Positions 1-8,395 of a stretch of 64,000 nt of DNA are shown here, in pieces. The position numbers and the translations under genes are program-made. The notes under the pieces are model-generated. The model did not search any database. It was not told where the DNA came from and saw nothing but the letters and a program-made list of their open reading frames with translations. This stretch comes from Streptomyces dengpaensis. Its GTDB lineage: Bacteria > Actinomycetota > Actinomycetes > Streptomycetales > Streptomycetaceae. The first letter of the stretch is position 1; each line of letters begins with the position of its first letter. The stretch is from positions 5,952,001 to 6,016,000 of the forward strand of contig NZ_CP026652.1 in NCBI RefSeq assembly GCF_002946835.1, given 5' to 3'.

Positions 1-3000
1 GTCGGCGAGGACGTTGGCGTAGTTGATGCCGGTGAAGAGGGTGTGGGGGTGCTGTTCGCCCAGTACTTCGCCCATCCGGCGGAGCACCTGGCTGAGTACC
101 GTTGCCGCCTCCTCGGTGTCCCCGCAGCCCCAGTGGAAGATGCCCAGGTTGTTCATTGCGGCCTGGGTGTACGGATGGGCCTCGCCCGGCACCTTCATGT
201 ACTCGGCCAGAGCCTCCCGGGCGACCTCGCGCGCGGCCTCCCGCTCGTCGGCGGCGAACAGGTCGGCGGCCATGTTCAGATCGCAGGCGAGCGAGTCGGG
301 GGTGGAGGTCGGGTACTGGGCCCGGTACTGGGCGCGCGTGGCCGTCGTCAGCCGGCGGGCGTCCTCGAACTGGCCCGCCCTGCGCAGCGACACGGCGAGC
401 GACTTGGCGCAGCTCAGCGTGCCGGGGAACTCCTTTCCGAGGATCCGCTTATGGGCGTCGTACGCGCGGGAGAGCATCGACACCGACTCCGTGTAGCGGC
501 CCACCTCGCGCAGGTCGCGGCCCACGCGAGCCGCCGAGGCCAGCGTGTACGGGTGGTCGGGGCCCAGGACCTCGATGCGCCGGTCGTAGGTGTCCTGGTC
601 GATGACGCGGGCTTCGCCGTAGCGGCCGACCATGCGCAGCGCGAGCGCGAGGTTGTTGGCGGCGCTGAGGGTGCGCCGGTGGGACTCGTGGAAGATCTGG
701 CTGAAGCCCTCGTGCGCCTCGCGCGCGAACTCCACCGCCGAGCCGTACACGCCGAGCGCCGCGAGGTCACTGGCCAGGCCGGACATGGTGACGTACGTGT
801 GCGGGTGCGAGGGCCCGAGGACGCGCTGCTGGCGTTCGAGGAGTTCGGTGTTGATGTCGCGGGCTTCCACGTACCGGCCTTGGGAGCGCAGGACGTTGCC
901 GAGCTGGCAGCGCAGGTAGAGGTACTGGACGTCGTCCTCGCCGAGGATCGGCTTCCAGTGGTCGAGGAGGTCCTGGGCGAGCGCCTGGGCGCCGGGGAAC
1001 TCACCGCGCTTCCACAGATAGCGGACGCGGTCGATGAGCAGCCTGCGGGTCTCCGCCTCGGTGCAGTTGCGGGCGTCGGAGGCGGCCAGGTGCGGCCAGA
1101 TGACCGAGAACCGCGGCCAGGTCTCGGGGTCGTCGATGGGCTCGTCGCCGTCGGGCCGGCAGCCGGCGAGGACGGTGTGCACGACGTGCCGGGCCTGCCG
1201 CTGCTCCTCCTCGGTGAGCTGGGAGCGGATCACGGCCTGCACCAGACGGTGGACCTGGATGCTGTTGCTGACCTGGTCGACCTTGGCGAGCGCGAACCGG
1301 CCGATCTCGCGGATGACCCGGCCGAGCAGCAGACTCTCCTGGAGGGCGGGGTCGTACGGCTTGAGGGCGTCGATCATCTCCTTGCTGTAGAGCAGGTGGG
1401 AGGAGATCGGTTCCGCGGCGAGGAACGCGCACAGCTGGAGCAGGCGGACCGAGGCCGGGGAGCGTTCCCGGAGCCTGGCTATGGAGATGTTCCAGGTCGC
1501 GGCGACCGTCTTGGGGTAGTCGGAGGGCTGGTTGAGGTCGAGCACCTCGGTGGTCTGCTCGGCCAGCTGGCGCAGATACTCCTCGATCGGGGTGGCCGTC
1601 TCGGCGAGCCACGCCGCCGCCTGTTCGACGGCCAGCGGCAGATCGCCCACCGCGACCGCCACCTGGTCGGCCTCCTCGGGGGTGAGCCCGGAGGCGCGCC
1701 GGGTGAGGTGCTCGACGCTCTCCTCGCGCAGGAACACGTCGATCGCCAGGGAGTCGCCCTGCTGCGCCCACGCCTGGTTGCGGGAGGTCACCAGGATGTG
1801 GCCGCCGCCTCCGCTCGGGAAGTAGCGGGTGAGCTGGGTGGGATCGTCGGCGTTGTCGAAGACCAGGATCCAGCGCTTGGTCGGCGCGCCGCGGGACAGC
1901 ATCTGTACGGCTTCCTGGCTGGCCAGGTTGATGTCGTCGCCGCCGGGTGCGCCGATGCGGGCGGCGAGTTCGGCGAGCGAGGCGACGACGTTGCCGGTGT
2001 CCTCGGCGGAGATCCACCACACGAGGTCGTAGTCCGCCATGAACCGGTGCACATACTCCAGAGCGACCTGCGTCTTGCCGACGCCGCCGAGCCCGAACAG
2101 CGCCTGCGGCTGCGGCAGGACGACGGACATGCCGCCGCTGAGCTGGTCGCGGACCCGGTCCAGGATGAGGTTGCGGCCGGTGAAGGTGTTGTTGCGCTGC
2201 GGCGCGTTCCAGACGGCCGGGGTGCTGCCGGGGAAGCGGGGACCGGAGGGGCCGCCGTCGAGGGGCCGGCCCGGCAGCTCCAGGACGCTCAGCAGCGCGG
2301 TGACGCACTGGCCCTCGTCGAGCCGGTGCAGATCGACCGGATTGTGGTCGAGATACGACTCGGGCAGTCGCACCTCGTCGACCCGCAGCGGGACCAGGGT
2401 GGCGCCCGTGGCTTCCGAGTCGGACTCGATGAGGGAACGCCAGACGGCGTCGGCGTTGCGGGACTTGCGGAAGGCGTTCGAGAGGAGGACCAGGGTGCGG
2501 GTCGCCGGGTCGTGGTGCTCGACGGACCCGGTGGAGATGTCGTGCGGAATGACGTTGCAGCCGGACCGCTTGAGGAGGGACTCCGCCCAGTCGGCCCACA
2601 TGCGGTTCTCCGCCGCGTACGCGATGACGACGTCGGCGGCGGTGGTCATCGGCCGCCGACGCAGGAACGCGTCGCGGCAGCGCAGCCGCACCGGCTCCGG
2701 CACCGGCGGCAGCGCGGTGACATCGCCGTCTGTGATGACCGCGGTGAGCCGTTCGAAGGCGGACAGCAGCGAGTTGGCGATACCGCTCTCGTCGCCGACG
2801 GTGGCGAGGGTCTCTTCGTAGGCATAATAGGGCCTATAGGGTATTTCGACCGCCCCCCAGTACGCGGTCAGCTCCTCGCCGCCCAACTCCTCGCCGCCGA
2901 GTCCCTTGGGCAGTCCGTCGAACTTCAGCCGGGCGAGCGCCCGTCCGGCGTCGACCTTCTCCTTCTCGCCCTCGTCGATCCGCATCGGCACCGGCAGCAC

Positions 3001-3666
3001 CCGGATCTTGCGCTTGCGGTAGCCGTCCTCGACGCTGCGGGCCACGGCCGCCGCGCCGTCCAGGGACTGGTCGCTGAGGGTGAAGCAGTCCACGAGGACA
3101 TCCGGCATCTGCATGGTGCAGATGTCCGCGTTGTCGGACAGACCGGTCCGGCTGTCGACCAGGACATAGTCGTACGACGCCTTCATGTCGTCGCGCAGCG
3201 CGTCGAGGAAGAGCCCGCCGCCGAGCCGCTCGTAGAAGTTGTCCCACTCGAAGGACGACACGGTCGCGGAGTACGAGCGGTCCTGGCGTCCGGCGGAGAG
3301 GAAGTCCAGCGAGCCGCCCTCCTGGAAGCGCAGTCCCAGCCGCTCCGGTGTCAGCGAGATGGCGTGCTGCTCGACCCGCGCGTAGTCGAGGTGCCACTGT
3401 CCGGAGCGCTGGGTTCCGGTGGTCGCGGCCCAGGCGTACTCGTTGATGATGTCGATGACACCGGTGGTGGCCGCGAGCGCGTTGGGATCGAGGAAGGGGT
3501 GGAAGAAGCGGTGCAGACCCGGGGCCTCCAGGTCCCAGTCGACGGCCAGGACGCGCTTGCCGTTCGCCGCGAGGATCCATGCCGTGTTGGCCAGGGCCAT
3601 CGTGCGGCCGGTGCCGCCTTTGTACGAGTAGAAGGTGATGATGCGTCCGTCCTGCGCGGCCGTCAT
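1..3666 (-). CDS. fxsT: FxsT-type NTPase/TIR/NB-ARC/TPR protein (3' end cut by window edge)
   Basis: Last gene of the FxSxx-COOH peptide operon; about 1,220 codons are visible and no stop occurs before the left edge. Translation from the ATG at 3666 gives, in order: a ParA/MinD-like NTPase with a deviant Walker A (K16-GGTGRT) directly after FYSY; a TIR-like segment near residues 340-465 (AADVVIAYAAENRMWADW); an NB-ARC-like P-loop near residue 522 (GLGGVGKTQ) with Walker B VFDNADDP; then tetratricopeptide repeats from about residue 855 to the edge (blocks such as LGPSHPHTYV and LGPDHPYTLA). The start overlaps the fxsC stop as ATGA, so translation is probably coupled. This architecture matches the FxSxx-COOH system TPR protein family. 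The cellular role is not established; NB-ARC plus TIR plus TPR suggests a signal-transducing or conflict-type NTPase acting with the peptide. Confidence 0.88.
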   Translation of the reverse strand, partial: MTAAQDGRIITFYSYKGGTGRTMALANTAWILAANGKRVLAVDWDLEAPGLHRFFHPFLDPNALAATTGVIDIINEYAWAATTGTQRSGQWHLDYARVEQHAISLTPERLGLRFQEGGSLDFLSAGRQDRSYSATVSSFEWDNFYERLGGGLFLDALRDDMKASYDYVLVDSRTGLSDNADICTMQMPDVLVDCFTLSDQSLDGAAAVARSVEDGYRKRKIRVLPVPMRIDEGEKEKVDAGRALARLKFDGLPKGLGGEELGGEELTAYWGAVEIPYRPYYAYEETLATVGDESGIANSLLSAFERLTAVITDGDVTALPPVPEPVRLRCRDAFLRRRPMTTAADVVIAYAAENRMWADWAESLLKRSGCNVIPHDISTGSVEHHDPATRTLVLLSNAFRKSRNADAVWRSLIESDSEATGATLVPLRVDEVRLPESYLDHNPVDLHRLDEGQCVTALLSVLELPGRPLDGGPSGPRFPGSTPAVWNAPQRNNTFTGRNLILDRVRDQLSGGMSVVLPQPQALFGLGGVGKTQVALEYVHRFMADYDLVWWISAEDTGNVVASLAELAARIGAPGGDDINLASQEAVQMLSRGAPTKRWILVFDNADDPTQLTRYFPSGGGGHILVTSRNQAWAQQGDSLAIDVFLREESVEHLTRRASGLTPEEADQVAVAVGDLPLAVEQAAAWLAETATPIEEYLRQLAEQTTEVLDLNQPSDYPKTVAATWNISIARLRERSPASVRLLQLCAFLAAEPISSHLLYSKEMIDALKPYDPALQESLLLGRVIREIGRFALAKVDQVSNSIQVHRLVQAVIRSQLTEEEQRQARHVVHTVLAGCRPDGDEPIDDPETWPRFSVIWPHLAASDARNCTEAETRRLLIDRVRYLWKRGEFPGAQALAQDLLDHWKPILGEDDVQYLYLRCQLGNVLRSQGRYVEARDINTELLERQQRVLGPSHPHTYVTMSGLASDLAALGVYGSAVEFAREAHEGFSQIFHESHRRTLSAANNLALALRMVGRYGEARVIDQDTYDRRIEVLGPDHPYTLASAARVGRDLREVGRYTESVSMLSRAYDAHKRILGKEFPGTLSCAKSLAVSLRRAGQFEDARRLTTATRAQYRAQYPTSTPDSLACDLNMAADLFAADEREAAREVAREALAEYMKVPGEAHPYTQAAMNNLGIFHWGCGDTEEAATVLSQVLRRMGEVLGEQHPHTLFTGINYANVLAD

Positions 3667-4979
3667 TCTTCTTCTCCTCCGTTATCGGATCCGCCTTCGG
3701 GTAGCGGCGGGTGGACGGGGCCCATCAGGCGCGGCCTGCGGATGGTCGGGCCCGCGGGCGGATGAGCCTCGGCGTGCTTGAGGTACTGCCGGGTCGCGTG
3801 TGCCACGACGGCCGGGAGTACGTCGGTAAAGGCCTTCAGGGTGGGGACGCCGTTGACGGCGATCCGGCAGTCGGCGCGCCGGCCCCGGTCCAGGATCGAC
3901 GGAAGGGTCCGCTCCAGGTCGCCGGCCAGCTTGCGGCCCTCCTCGCCGTGACACTGGATGTCGGCCCGGTTCCAGGGGACGATCGCGCTGACCCAGGGGC
4001 GGGCGGTCGAGTCGAAGGCCCTGAGTCTGCGCTTGCGTTCCTCGTCGGTCAGCGACCACCGGTCGATGAGCAGAATCCCGGGGTGGCTCGGCGCCGCCTT
4101 CTCGGAGTCGTCCGTCACCAGGTCCTCGCCGGTGGTCTCGTCGTCGAAGGAGGACACCGTGATCCGGTAGTCGAGCGACCGGATCAGCTCCTCGGCGAGC
4201 GAGGGCAGCGGACGGGTGGACTCCGAGTGGTACGGATTCCAGTCCTGCGCGTCCTCGCCGTACGGGCGGGCGTCCCGGTGCTCGGGGATGGTGTGCCGGG
4301 TGGGCGCCGCCACGGTGAGGTGGATGCGCCGGGGGCCCTCGCCGCGCGGCTTGAACGCGCTCGGCGTTGACTCGTACGGGCGGGGCCTGCTCGACGGCAG
4401 CGGCGACTCGTGGGCGACCCGCACGATCCGCTGGGCGAGCCCGAGGACGGTCTCCTCGTACTCGTCGTGCAGCCGGTTGAGCTTGATCAGACCGTAGATC
4501 CCGTTGGCCGCGTACCGGTCGCCGAACGGCGCGTGGTCCACATGGATATGCCGTACGGAGTCCGGGAGTTGAGCGTAGTCGATATGCGTCCACAGCGCGG
4601 GGACGATCGCGGGAACGGAACCGGAACCGGTGGCCCGCGCGCGCAGAATACGTTCGTTGAACGCGAACCATTCCCGGCCGCAACTCTCACTCGTGAAGTA
4701 CCGCGGCGAGAACAGCGGCACGAACACCCGGCATGTCGCGAGGTTCTCGCTGAGTTTTTCCGGCCACCCGTCCCCCGAGCGCATCTCTCGGTCCATGAAA
4801 CCCGCGGGCGCGCCGGCCGGGAGATCCGTGAGCGCCATGATGTGGTCGCACAGGTCCGTGAAGAGGACGTGCACCCAGTGGTCCGGATCGCCGCCGCCGG
4901 GCCCCCAGGCCGGTGTGTGGGCGTAACTCAGGAAGAAATACGGCCGGTTGTCCGATGATGCCCGTTCAGGTATGTCCAC
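3663..4979 (-). CDS. fxsC: TIR-like protein FxsC
   Basis: 438 residues. The N-terminal half is TIR-like: YFFLSYAHTP at about residue 14 is the SYA beta-strand motif, followed by HWVHVLFTDLCDHI, a GFMDREMRSGDGW loop, and VFVPLFSPRYFTSESC, typical of TIR_2 folds. The C-terminal half has no motif I recognise apart from a basic, arginine-rich stretch. FxsC is a family found with FxSxx-COOH peptide precursors in actinomycetes. The GTG start at 4979 follows AGGGGGGCGC. The gene lies 93 nt after the acetyltransferase stop and overlaps fxsT by ATGA. Whether the TIR domain cleaves NAD or only binds partners cannot be told from sequence. Assignment is strong because of the adjoining fxsB and fxsA. Confidence 0.88.
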   Translation of the reverse strand: MDIPERASSDNRPYFFLSYAHTPAWGPGGGDPDHWVHVLFTDLCDHIMALTDLPAGAPAGFMDREMRSGDGWPEKLSENLATCRVFVPLFSPRYFTSESCGREWFAFNERILRARATGSGSVPAIVPALWTHIDYAQLPDSVRHIHVDHAPFGDRYAANGIYGLIKLNRLHDEYEETVLGLAQRIVRVAHESPLPSSRPRPYESTPSAFKPRGEGPRRIHLTVAAPTRHTIPEHRDARPYGEDAQDWNPYHSESTRPLPSLAEELIRSLDYRITVSSFDDETTGEDLVTDDSEKAAPSHPGILLIDRWSLTDEERKRRLRAFDSTARPWVSAIVPWNRADIQCHGEEGRKLAGDLERTLPSILDRGRRADCRIAVNGVPTLKAFTDVLPAVVAHATRQYLKHAEAHPPAGPTIRRPRLMGPVHPPLPEGGSDNGGEEE

Positions 4980-5072
4980 GCGCCCCCCTGCCTGTGGATG
5001 AGCCCCTACGGGATGTTCACCTGGCCGGAACCAACAATCTTCCCGACCATGCGCCCGTACGGTCCGCCTCTT

Positions 5073-5894
5073 TCACGTCAAACCGTGGCGATATCCAGAC
5101 ATCTGGACACCGCCCTGGTCGACAGCTTCCCGCATCCCGAGGAGCAGCACCGCTTTCCCCGCCATTTCCCGTTTCGTCATGAGATCACGCGGCAGTCGTT
5201 CCCCGATGGCTCCGAAGTCCCCGTCGTACAGGGTGATGTCCTCGTACGGGGTCCAGTTCCCCTTCTCGCCCTCCACGCCGTGGTACGTCCGCTTCGGGGG
5301 CGTGGGCCGCAGCCGGTACTCGGCGAGATGGAACGCGGTGCACACCTCGAACCCCACCCGGAACAGCAGGACTTGGGCGTCCGCGGCGTACAGCCGGGCC
5401 AGCGGGGAGCGCTCGCCGAGAAGGCAGTGCGGATCGTGGTCGCCCAGCAGCTCCGCGGCCCGCGGACCGAGCCCGGCGAACGAGGTGTGCGGATGCCCGC
5501 TGCGTACGGCGCCCGGCGTGGTCCGTACGCACTCGGCGAGCACGCCCATCGTCGGACAGGGCGTCGCGTCGGGCTCGAACGGCGGCCTCGACTCCCGGAA
5601 CTCCCTCTCCTCACGCTCGGACATGCCGTCGGTGAGCTCCTTGTACGCCCGCGAGGTGAACGAGTTCTCCGGCGTGAAGGCGGGCACGACGAGCGTGCCG
5701 TCGGGGCCCAGCGCCTCGAGCAACGCCTTCTGTACGTCGGTGTCACGCAGCCCCGTGCCGCCGAGGGAGGCGTGGACCATGAGGACGCTGCCGGGGCGGA
5801 CCCCCACCTCCAGGAATAAGTCGGCCAGTTGCCCGCACTCGAGCCCGGCCGGTCGCCTGCGCTCGAGCTCGGGCAGTTGTGTGTGGTCAAGCAC
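5073..5894 (-). CDS. AAC(3)-family N-acetyltransferase inside the fxs operon
   Basis: 273 residues from the GTG at 5894 (VLDHTQLPELERRRPAG). The protein has the aminoglycoside 3-N-acetyltransferase fold signatures: VLMVHASLGGTGL near residue 33, LVVPAFTPENS, a TPTMG-like CPTMGVLAE segment, and SGHPHTSFAGLGPRA. These enzymes move acetyl from acetyl-CoA to an amine. The start codon sits inside the fxsB coding end (GTGCTTGA, 8-nt overlap), so it is translationally coupled to the radical-SAM maturase. I infer that the natural substrate is more likely the matured peptide or a product derived from it than an aminoglycoside, but a resistance or self-protection role is not excluded. A longer in-frame reading upstream to 5984 would overlap fxsB by almost 100 nt and is not favoured. 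Confidence 0.8.
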   Translation of the reverse strand: MLDHTQLPELERRRPAGLECGQLADLFLEVGVRPGSVLMVHASLGGTGLRDTDVQKALLEALGPDGTLVVPAFTPENSFTSRAYKELTDGMSEREEREFRESRPPFEPDATPCPTMGVLAECVRTTPGAVRSGHPHTSFAGLGPRAAELLGDHDPHCLLGERSPLARLYAADAQVLLFRVGFEVCTAFHLAEYRLRPTPPKRTYHGVEGEKGNWTPYEDITLYDGDFGAIGERLPRDLMTKREMAGKAVLLLGMREAVDQGGVQMSGYRHGLT

Positions 5895-8070
5895 GGTAGT
5901 CCTCCCACTCGGCACGCAGCTCCTCCGCCAACACCGCGCCGGTCTCGGTGAGTTCACCTTCCGGCCGGGCGGCCAGCTGCTCAAGGGCGCGGCCCGCCCG
6001 CTTTAGTGCGCCGGCGCGTGCGCCGTCATCGCCCCGCCAGTAGGTGGCGTTGCCGAGCTCGCGGCTCGCCTCGTCGAGCAGCCGCCCGGCCCTGTTGCCC
6101 GGCACGTTCAGGTCCGCCGTCTCGCGCAGCGCGGTCAGCCTCGCCAGGCGTCCGGTGCGCGGCAGTTCGCGCACGAACTCCTCCGGGTCGACGTCGACGG
6201 CCACGCCGACCGCGCCGAGCCCGTGGGCGCCGAGCCGTACGCCCGAGCCCGCCACGAGCGGGGTGACCGTGGTGGCGAGCAGCGCGTTGACGTCGTCCCG
6301 GCGGCCGGGCTGACGCTCGTCCAGCAGCGCGTACGCCGTGCGCAGCCGTTCGGCGAACGCGGCGAGGTCGCCGGGGCCGAGGGGAGGGGCGACGGGTACG
6401 GGGTAGCAGTCGCGGAGCGGGTCGGCGTCGTCGATGAGCAGCCGGGTGCCGTCCGGGAGGGGGAGGGTGCGCAGGGGGCGCCACGGGGTGCGGCCGTCTT
6501 CGGGGGCGTAGTCGGTGCCGTCCTCGGGGGAGTACTCGGTACCGTCCTCGGTGCGCACGTGGACGCGGCCCGCCGCCACCTGGACCTCGACGCGACCGGG
6601 CCCGGCCAGCGCGAGGGTGCCCAGGGTGGGGAGGTGCAGCTCGGGAGCGGGCTGGTCCCAGGTGAGCTTGAGGTCGGCGCGGGCGCGGGCGGCGATGGCG
6701 ACCACCGCCGAGGCGAGGGGTTCCGGGGTGGTGACCCGGCCGTGCAGACAGTGCTTGAGCGTGGTGTGCAGATAGGGGTGGGCGAGGACTTCGTCGATGT
6801 CCGGTGTGCCGTCCGTCATGCCGTCGAGGTCCAGGAAGGCCCGCCATACCTCGTCCCAGTCGGCTTCCCCGGCGTGCCGGGCCGCCACGACGGCGATGAG
6901 ATGGCGCACCAACTCGACCTGGGCGAAGCGGAGTTCGTCACTGTCGCGGACGGCCGGGCTGAGCGCGTGCTCGGTGATGCGCTCGGCCACGCCGTCGACG
7001 AAGGCGCGCAGGTCGGAACAGAAGACGGACGGGTTGTCGAAGCCGCTGCCGTTGCTGTACCGGTGCGCGTAGAGGCCTCCGCCGCACGACTCGATCACCG
7101 GGCAGCGACGGCAGGTCGCGCTGACACCGGCGAGGCCGAGCTGGCGGGCACGTACGCCGGGGTGGCGCGCGAACTCCGCGAAGCTGTGCCGGAAGACGTC
7201 GTAGCCGGTCGAAGGGGCCCCGTCGTACGCGGTCTTGAGGGAATCCGCCTGCTCAAAGCTGCCGTCGGTCTCCACCACCGCGAGATCGCTCGGCGCGAGC
7301 CCCATCGCCTCCGTCAGGCTCGGCCCGCCCCGCAGGGTGCTGAGCACCGACTCGAAGGTCCGCACCTCGACGGTACGCCCCTGCCGGTCCCAGCGATCGA
7401 AGATCTTGAGCAGCCAATCGGCGTACTCGGTGGGTGAGTTGGCCGGTCTGAGCGGAGGACTGTCCCATGTGGAGTGCGGCAGCAGGTAGTCGATGCGGGG
7501 CGGACGGAGCGCGGCGAGCGCGTCGTGCACGGCGACGGGATCATTGGCCACGTCCACGGTGCACAGCAGACCGCTGTAGAGATGCCGGTACTCGGGGGTG
7601 CGCAGCAGTCTGATCGCGCGCAGCACCCGGTCGTAACTGCTGCGCCGCCTCCGGTCGCGTCGGTGCCGGTCGTTGGCGGCACGGTCGCCGTCGAGCGAGA
7701 TGCTGACCCTGACGCCGAATTCCTTGAACACATCGAGATGGCGGGTGTTCAGCTGAACGCCATTGGTGTGGATGCGGAGATCTAATGCGGTGACCGGGGT
7801 AATAGCACGGGTGAGTTCCGCACAAATGTTTCTCATCCGGATGGGGCCTACGAGAAGAGGTTCACCACCGTGAAGGATCACGGAAACGGAGGCGAGTTTT
7901 TGTTCTTCCGCATAGTCCGCGAATCGCCGGGCCACTTTTCCGAGCGTTTCTTCGGAAATGAAGGTCGGGCGCCCTTTCCAGCTTTGATCGGCATGCTCGT
8001 ACACATAACAGTGATCACAGGCGAGGTCGCATCGACTGTGGATCTTGAGGACGAGCTGCTGCAGCTTCAC
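5887..8070 (-). CDS. fxsB: Radical SAM/SPASM peptide maturase FxsB
   Basis: 727 residues from the GTG at 8070 (VKLQQLVLKIHSRC). The radical-SAM cluster motif is C14-x3-C18-x2-C21 (CDLACDHCY), followed by VILHGGEP and a SPASM-type Cys cluster (CRRCPVIESCGGG ... FCSDL) near residues 320-360 that binds auxiliary Fe-S. The remaining 350 residues are the long C-terminal extension of FxsB, described for this family as an inactivated metallohydrolase-like domain; no HExxH is seen. The enzyme should crosslink the C-terminal FDS of FxsA; FxsB relatives are reported to form three-residue cyclophanes by C-C bonds from Phe. A GTG at 8166 is also in frame, but the hairpin at 8112-8136 would then be inside the gene, and family members begin close to the KxHSRC motif, so 8070 is chosen. 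Its ribosome site is weak. Confidence 0.9.
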   Translation of the reverse strand: MKLQQLVLKIHSRCDLACDHCYVYEHADQSWKGRPTFISEETLGKVARRFADYAEEQKLASVSVILHGGEPLLVGPIRMRNICAELTRAITPVTALDLRIHTNGVQLNTRHLDVFKEFGVRVSISLDGDRAANDRHRRDRRRRSSYDRVLRAIRLLRTPEYRHLYSGLLCTVDVANDPVAVHDALAALRPPRIDYLLPHSTWDSPPLRPANSPTEYADWLLKIFDRWDRQGRTVEVRTFESVLSTLRGGPSLTEAMGLAPSDLAVVETDGSFEQADSLKTAYDGAPSTGYDVFRHSFAEFARHPGVRARQLGLAGVSATCRRCPVIESCGGGLYAHRYSNGSGFDNPSVFCSDLRAFVDGVAERITEHALSPAVRDSDELRFAQVELVRHLIAVVAARHAGEADWDEVWRAFLDLDGMTDGTPDIDEVLAHPYLHTTLKHCLHGRVTTPEPLASAVVAIAARARADLKLTWDQPAPELHLPTLGTLALAGPGRVEVQVAAGRVHVRTEDGTEYSPEDGTDYAPEDGRTPWRPLRTLPLPDGTRLLIDDADPLRDCYPVPVAPPLGPGDLAAFAERLRTAYALLDERQPGRRDDVNALLATTVTPLVAGSGVRLGAHGLGAVGVAVDVDPEEFVRELPRTGRLARLTALRETADLNVPGNRAGRLLDEASRELGNATYWRGDDGARAGALKRAGRALEQLAARPEGELTETGAVLAEELRAEWEDYRA

Positions 8071-8111
8071 TCGGAGAAGAGTAGTGCCGACGGGATGTCG
8101 CCCGTACCACC

Positions 8112-8136
8112 AACCCCTTGATCCCTCAAGGAGGTT
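8112..8136 (-). promoter_or_regulatory. Hairpin between fxsA and fxsB
   Basis: On the minus strand AACCTCCTTGA, loop GGGA, then TCAAGGGGTT forms a 10-pair stem with one bulge. It lies 77 nt after the fxsA stop and 41 nt before the favoured fxsB start. No T-run follows, so it may be a partial terminator or RNA-stabilising stem that lets the precursor transcript outnumber the maturase transcript, as is common in RiPP operons. The function is inferred. Confidence 0.5.
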
Positions 8137-8212
8137 GACGGCTCCGGCGCACACGCACGGGCGCACCGGACGGTTGTCGTACCGCCGGATGCGCCCGTGT
8201 CGAAGTCTGTGT

Positions 8213-8395
8213 CTACAGTGCCGAGTCGAAGGTGATCGGCTTGGCCGGACGTCGTCCGGGGATGTCGGTCACTCGTCCGGCGGACCGCACGGCTGCGGCG
8301 CCGCGGGGGTCGATGGCCGACAGGGGAGTGTGCTGCTTGCGAGCGGGCCGAGGAGCGGCGGAGCGGTGCGTCGTCGGCGTCACCGAAACGTTCAT
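8213..8395 (-). CDS. fxsA: FxSxx-COOH RiPP precursor peptide FxsA
   Basis: 60 residues. The last five are FDSAL followed by the stop, an exact fit to the F-x-S-x-x-COOH rule that names the family. The leader is Ala/Pro/Arg-rich (THRSAAPRPARKQH) and the conserved core region PAKPITFDSAL lies at the end. The ATG at 8395 is preceded by GGAAACTCTCCA, a weak ribosome site. It is the first gene of the fxsA-fxsB-acetyltransferase-fxsC-fxsT operon. The 200 nt upstream (8396-8594) must hold the promoter; TTGATC near 8456 is a possible -35 but no convincing -10 is paired with it. The predicted crosslink joins the Phe ring to Ser of FDS; whether the product is released by proteolysis, and what it does, are unknown. 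Confidence 0.92.
   Translation of the reverse strand: MNVSVTPTTHRSAAPRPARKQHTPLSAIDPRGAAAVRSAGRVTDIPGRRPAKPITFDSAL

Follow-up and report, generated by a model that had tools for sequence, protein, structure and literature searches.

The window, by which we mean the whole 64,000-nucleotide stretch analysed here (G000:C1:5952001-6016000 of the 8.71 Mb genome of Streptomyces dengpaensis; coordinates below are positions in it), carries at its left end an operon of the FxSxx-COOH type, which encodes a peptide precursor, a radical SAM/SPASM maturase and two TIR-bearing proteins, FxsC and FxsT. The way a catalytic-position glutamate is divided between these two proteins, together with the genes that recur beside the operon, leads us to propose that it may encode a peptide-gated intracellular switch. 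The locus is an instance of a known system: its core is already named in NCBIfam, and the precursor terminus as well as FxsB, FxsC and FxsT (the parts modelled by TIGR04268, TIGR04269, NF040588/TIGR04276 and NF040586) are all present.

Five co-directional genes had been reported in the first-pass annotation, and all five could be located on the minus strand. fxsA (8213..8395) translates to a 60-residue precursor that ends ITFDSAL, with the FDSAL terminus described and the FxSxx core; fxsB (5887..8166) encodes the predicted cyclophane maturase; a gene for an acyltransferase resembling aminoglycoside-3-N-acetyltransferases lies at 5073..5894; and these are joined by fxsC (3663..4979) and by fxsT, the first 1222 of whose 1311 codons occupy 1..3666. 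Since the fxsT stop falls at window coordinate -269, 270 bases outside the window, the operon is not, as had been stated, complete within the stretch. The overlaps of 4 or 8 nt attributed to the genes occur at two of the four junctions (8 nt at fxsB/acyltransferase, 4 nt at fxsC/fxsT), while the acyltransferase gene and fxsC are separated by 93 nt, and fxsA and fxsB by at least 46 nt that hold a strong hairpin.

For comparison, 199 Streptomyces genomes were searched with profiles, and FxsC scored over its cut-off in 68 and under it in 131, with 94 over-cut-off matches. Sixty stretches fetched around such matches, including one around the second copy in the window's genome, form the genus set; 52 of them have FxsB and a ParA-bearing FxsT, and in the other eight FxsC lies in a longer frame without them. 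A named set of 80 loci was reduced to 70 by leaving out ten without both FxsB and ParA-FxsT; it has strains in common with the genus set, so counts from the two are not independent. For a class-level set, 20 of the 21 non-Streptomyces genomes above the FxsC cut-off were taken.

FxsC, described earlier as TIR-like, scores 233 bits against NF040588 (cut-off 130) and 173 bits against TIGR04276 (cut-off 55), and consists of an N-terminal TIR domain (residues 13-190) and an FxsC_Cterm domain. Its Glu103 (codon 4673-4671) falls in a helix (98-116) after a strand (85-90), and is present in all 119 homologues with a residue at that position. At the equivalent place FxsT has a valine (codon 408, 2443..2445, by homologue alignment), and of its 120 homologues 119 have a residue at this place, in no case Glu; the two alignments hold the best 120 of 1060 FxsC matches and the best 120 of 5396 FxsT matches. 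The contrast between the two proteins recurs in other sets. By locus set, Glu is found at this FxsT position in 0 of 53, 0 of 76 and 1 of 19 proteins, whereas the FxsT-like proteins of FxsC-less loci, which have no ParA domain, retain it in 18 of 19. The predicted model of FxsC matches the TIR domains of AbTir, SPARTA and SARM1, consistent with a TIR fold; its sequence profile returned only chance ribosomal matches among PDB sequences. Together this suggests that the TIR of FxsT is dead and that of FxsC intact. Cleavage of nicotinamide adenine dinucleotide (NAD), raised earlier for both proteins, would thus be plausible for FxsC, which keeps the glutamate and whose model matches NADase TIRs, but not for FxsT, whose TIR has lost it.

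The multi-domain character of FxsT was confirmed by a score of 965 bits against NF040586 (cut-off 300) and by matches to NF047398, TIR_2, NB-ARC and TPR models. The protein starts with a ParA/MinD-like domain of the KGGVGR type (3645-2719), followed by the pseudo-TIR (2631-2314), NB-ARC (2106-1546) and TPRs (about 912-1). The NB-ARC P-loop, G[LM]GGVGK[TS], is intact in all 52 genus operons, and P-loop and superstructure-forming repeats together place FxsT among STAND/NLR (nucleotide-binding, repeat-bearing receptor) proteins. The ParA domain is named 'inactive MinD/ParA-like' by Kaur et al. 2020 (PMC7159879). Its Walker A motif reads KGGTGRT, a fixed Lys-to-Arg change, in 52 of 52 operons, and this invariance suggests that the domain still does something; the mean share of the commonest residue is 0.85 across the ParA part versus 0.62 across the TIR.

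The operon is conserved as a unit far beyond chance: all 52 Streptomyces operon loci have fxsB, fxsC and fxsT consecutively in that order on the same strand, and in 50 of them the 1.5 kb upstream of the FxsB domain contains an open reading frame (ORF) ending FxSxx. One of these 50 ORFs, at 1499 nt in L106, is spurious, and L101 and L102 have none; as background, 59 of 15033 ORFs in the same stretches end FxSxx, operon precursors counted in. Such a terminus is also found upstream of fxsB in 64 of the 70 named-set operons. FxsA itself scores 19 bits against TIGR04268 (E 0.0013), below the cut-off of 28, and is identified by its terminus, position and relatives rather than by model score.

FxsB was correctly recognized as a radical SAM/SPASM maturase: it scores 590 bits against TIGR04269 (cut-off 370), and its CX3CX2C motif and four further cysteines are conserved across 158 aligned sequences. 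The C-terminal extension matches NF040587 (330 bits), a model named 'inactivated beta-hydroxylase', and lacks HExxH, which was likewise not found in the FxsB frames of 48 of 52 relatives; in L056 the extension sits in another, unread frame. The family IPR026335, which includes the enzyme MscB, we take to be the FxsB family. The earlier statement that FxsB-type enzymes build three-residue cyclophanes agrees with the account of MscB in the parts of the source used here, where it links C4 of Phe to C-beta of Ser (PMC11002830).

The hairpin between fxsA and fxsB (8150..8199, minus strand) is a candidate attenuator, as judged from its folding energy: the region 8120-8215 has a minimum free energy of -45.5 kcal/mol (z -2.85), equalled by 3 of 200 shuffles, and there is no T-run at the hairpin. 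Because the GTG at 8166 sits inside it, the true start of fxsB is perhaps near 8070. Upstream of FxsB, a TAGA[CAT]T element 4-8 nt before an ATG or GTG, which resembles a -10 box in front of a leaderless start, occurs in 32 of the 52 genus operons, 33 of the 70 named ones and none of the 19 class-level ones, against 3 of 2000 random stretches.

The acyltransferase, reported as an acetyltransferase, does match PF02522 (Antibiotic_NAT) with 205 bits, but remains under the cut-offs of all five aminoglycoside-3-N-acetyltransferase (AAC(3)) models that it matched. As its gene also lies inside a peptide operon, a role in aminoglycoside resistance was considered and set aside. The gene is found between fxsB and fxsC in 28 of 52 genus operons; in L080 and L084, outside these 28, it is instead beyond fxsT on the opposite strand. 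Since FxsB and the acyltransferase share one open frame at L103:9727-12759, we infer that the two may act in joint maturation of the peptide.

The most constant neighbour of the operon is an alpha/beta-hydrolase gene (PF00561, PF12146), which in this strain lies outside the window at about -1339 to -305, points toward fxsT, leaving about 32 bases between its own end and the fxsT stop. A homologue stands beside 51 of 52 genus operons, in 42 of them downstream, convergent and within 0.5 kb, and in nine on the other side at 0.45-5.1 kb. The latter arrangement looks like an inversion between fixed flanks, in which the SLATT gene described below switches sides too, and is for that reason not independent evidence. 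No hydrolase was found at 51 other loci (8 FxsC-only stretches, 3 loci of this genome and 40 FxsT loci). Three loci chosen for its absence, L163, L164 and L167, have FxsB, FxsC and ParA-FxsT and lie outside the 52-operon set; counting them, the hydrolase accompanies 51 of 55. The named set has it in 69 of 70 operons, the exception, L225, having just 48 bases past fxsT, and it adjoins all nine operons in two further families. In family f18 (L254, L256, L258-L263, L265 and L266) the layout is different: FxsB is divergent from fxsC-fxsT, a second NB-ARC protein is present, and no hydrolase was found in the ten loci. Among flank families defined at 40% identity or more, the hydrolase is found in 8 of 9 FxsT clades and the next families in 4.

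Ser97, Asp243 and His271 of the hydrolase are identical across all 131-132 aligned sequences, and its closest solved relative is 9wlv (205 bits). Matches of at least 300 bits occur in 71 of the 199 genomes, 62 of the 68 with FxsC and 9 of the 131 without. In a tree that took in 16 of 71 named-set and 49 of 51 genus-set hydrolases, these nine, the copy of G022 and three second copies form a clade of 13 apart from the operon-linked hydrolases (support 99/96), with a fourteenth free row, L162, long and unplaced, and the root unsure. Weaker matches in seven FxsC-less genomes (G005, G020, G033, G045, G062, G105 and G112) were not placed in the tree; that of G005, beside a protease gene, may be the remnant of a lost operon. 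At L154, a hydrolase of the free clade adjoins an FxsB gene in a stretch that holds no FxsC or FxsT.

A second recurrent neighbour, one of the flank families found in 4 of 9 FxsT clades, encodes a protein with two transmembrane helices (2TM) and SLATT_3 and SLATT_1 matches. It stands beside 42 of 52 genus operons, mostly divergent from fxsA (34 upstream on the opposite strand, 8 downstream on the same strand), and beside 64 of 70 named-set operons, 1 of 19 class-level operons (a weak match) and 0 of 51 other genus loci. SLATT_3 is present in 55 of 68 FxsC genomes versus 6 of 131 others, and 50 of 63 SLATT_3 matches lie within 8 kb of FxsC, versus about 0.1% per match by chance. In G057 some 0.4 kb separates the SLATT gene from the protease gene, which in other genomes lies on the far side of the hydrolase; it looks as though operon and hydrolase had been lost there in one piece. 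In the sections of Kaur et al. 2020 consulted, SLATT proteins are predicted nucleotide-signal-responsive pore effectors that occur with GTPase-centred systems (PMC7159879).

Kaur et al. 2020 (eLife; PMC7159879) describe FxSxx peptides with radical SAM/SPASM enzymes in both VMAP-linked and standalone systems, and suggest that the peptide is a toxin or a signal. The standalone system and the present one share the precursor motif, the radical SAM/SPASM maturase and a ParA-TIR-NB-ARC-TPR protein. With this system, its AP-ATPase, the inactive ParA domain and the toxin-or-signal idea in print, calling the role largely undescribed was too strong. However, section 24 of that paper gives no FxsC, division of the TIR glutamate, hydrolase or SLATT beside the standalone system; in the parts consulted, alpha/beta-hydrolases and SLATT are named in other conflict systems. 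The FxSxx-linked VMAP ternary systems are alike in pairing an FxsB-type maturase with a TIR-AP-ATPase-TPR protein. At FxsB-bearing loci without FxsC, whose VMAP linkage is taken from the same paper, the FxsT-like protein has no ParA domain and keeps its TIR glutamate, unlike FxsT of the window. In the open-access literature, outside which most subscription journals lie, we found one relevant paper for FxSxx and no paper on FxsC or functional study of the family; within that literature, the TIR division and the hydrolase and SLATT neighbours appear undescribed for FxSxx systems.

Two further comparisons are informative. The triceptide enzymes MscB, XncB and OscB, in the part of the source used (PMC11002830), are likewise SPASM radical SAM proteins that join an aromatic residue i to i+2; for the present strain such a product is predicted from the genes. 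TIR-NLR immunity, for which we compared plant TIR-NLRs (TNLs), SARM1, SPARTA and AbTir, also couples an NB-ARC sensor to a TIR with a catalytic-position glutamate. Here, however, sensor and enzyme would be two proteins, the sensor TIR lacks the glutamate, and a modified peptide would be produced with them.

Sequence establishes the gene set, the motif patterns and the recurring neighbours, and from these we infer, with a probability of roughly 45%, a peptide-gated, NLR-like intracellular switch in which the sensor FxsT activates the TIR enzyme FxsC. Within the FDSAL terminus of FxsA, FxsB would crosslink Phe56 to Ser58, and the acyltransferase and the neighbouring hydrolase could finish or release a small C-terminal product. 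As the operon has no consistently conserved transporter neighbour (the hydrolase alone exceeds 4 of 9 clades among flank families that are partly annotated), this product would stay inside the cell, where the TPR/NB-ARC sensor FxsT may read it as a ligand; alternatively, it could be a self-signal whose disturbance is sensed. FxsT would then oligomerise on ATP. Its Glu-less TIR would serve as a platform to which FxsC binds, TIR to TIR, and the intact TIR of FxsC would cleave or cyclise NAD. The resulting nucleotide could open the SLATT 2TM protein in most Streptomyces relatives; in the window strain, where SLATT is missing, growth would be arrested by the loss of NAD as such or through some other target. 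The absence of a conserved transporter, the SLATT neighbour of most operons and the glutamate of FxsC favour the earlier preference for signalling or conflict over an antibiotic.

If the division of the TIR domains is real, FxsC is the enzyme and FxsT the switch. The fuller version, a split TIR-NLR in which the sensor TIR is a non-catalytic adaptor, the enzyme role has passed to a partner protein, control is exerted by a locally made, crosslinked peptide of three residues, a SLATT pore is opened in most Streptomyces and the hydrolase makes or removes the peptide, is a tentative proposal that we consider less likely than not. It would amount to a bacterial TIR-adaptor circuit, with a logic like that of animal and plant receptor-adaptor TIR pairs and a ribosomally synthesised and post-translationally modified peptide (RiPP) as internal ligand. 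Knock-outs confined to fxsABCT would overlook the hydrolase and SLATT genes, which offer two more handles and would link a peptide made by a radical SAM enzyme with NLR-like signalling in a genus that is easy to work with.

Several observations weigh against such a switch. Glu103 is called catalytic by motif and helix rather than by residue-level superposition, Foldseek alone gave the whole FxsC model no match at E 0.001 or better, and in a loose alignment one of 19 class-level FxsT proteins does show a Glu. No SLATT_3 protein is encoded in the window's genome, nor did tblastn find any SLATT near the window, which rules out the pore step in its described form for this strain; the genome has one weak SLATT_1 match elsewhere, and the close relatives L086, L169, L170, L172 and L211 also lack SLATT_3. 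The PADLOC 2023 models gave only shared-domain matches (for pVip the radical SAM core, at 34 bits; for the candidate PDC-M28B the ParA domain, at 77 bits), with no listed system matched over most of a component. L165, L166 and L168 have FxsC and FxsT without FxsB in the stretch read, and the peptide may therefore not be essential there. Finally, on 28 chromosome-sized contigs, taken as chromosomes, the operon lies at 0.06-0.40 of the length from an end, and on 25 of them at 0.14-0.34, unlike scattered mobile islands. This recurrent position led us to reject a mobile defence island. The operon does move at times: an FxsC relative at E 1e-20 is present in 4 of 72,556 plasmid records, and among the listed homologues one pair (P0042, P0222) is named plasmid-borne.

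The similar relative position across many species would also suit a developmental or metabolic regulator, in which FxsT integrates an endogenous crosslinked-peptide signal and, with FxsC, influences differentiation or antibiotic production instead of phage. The presence of ordinary metabolic genes nearby in the window, some of them also found beside the operon in close relatives, fits this idea, as does the NB-ARC-TPR architecture of FxsT, which resembles that of AfsR. We nevertheless consider it unlikely, given that the first 1222 residues of FxsT contain no DNA-binding Pfam domain, that FxsC keeps its catalytic-position glutamate beside a predicted pore gene at most operons, and that the system is patchily present among the genomes searched. 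Less probable still is a secreted RiPP toxin with FxsC and FxsT as producer immunity or regulation: a maturation set with extra tailoring enzymes would serve one, and Kaur et al. 2020 left the choice between peptide toxin and signal open (PMC7159879), but in the flanks read, with families partly annotated, no transporter is conserved throughout, and the core peptide is short and shows little variation, 38 of 64 named loci having FNSAL, FSSAL or FDSAL.

A different objection is that the hydrolase and SLATT genes are neighbours through chromosomal synteny alone and stand outside the system. Related hydrolases do occur without fxs genes, often next to the alpha-lytic-type protease gene that also flanks many operons and recurs in one clade of operon flanks, and 10 of the 52 operons, like the window, have no SLATT. 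Yet 13 of 14 sampled fxs-free hydrolases, including those of all nine FxsC-less genomes at 300 bits or more, fall in the separate clade, operons of two other families are adjoined by the hydrolase, and SLATT_3 clusters with FxsC far above chance. We regard synteny alone as unlikely.

Other features touch the system more loosely. A GAF fragment lies upstream of fxsA at window:8943-9404, where L086 has a two-GAF histidine-kinase gene in a longer GAF-GAF-HisKA_3 frame. The four neighbours scanned are MreB-like, carboxyltransferase, AMP-binding and abhydrolase genes, so that the search for vWA, MoxR and VMAP covered some of the neighbours. The same genome has a second FxsB locus at G000:C1:2867564-2881468 (L010, L011), with two TIR-NB-ARC-TPR proteins that lack ParA and one TIR in which Asp replaces Glu, and a third FxsB-type gene at G000:C1:6993791-6999267 (L012), which is divergent from the gene for an FxSxx_TPR-family protein whose start is weakly ParA-like. 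L166 and L168 encode a divergent separate protein resembling the ParA domain of FxsT. At L095:7740-10643 a SAV_2336 N-terminal domain is fused to a complete FxsC; long FxsC-bearing frames also occur in L057, L062, L088, L096, L097, L104 and L108, and L107 and L264 carry a tandem pair of FxsC-type TIR frames.

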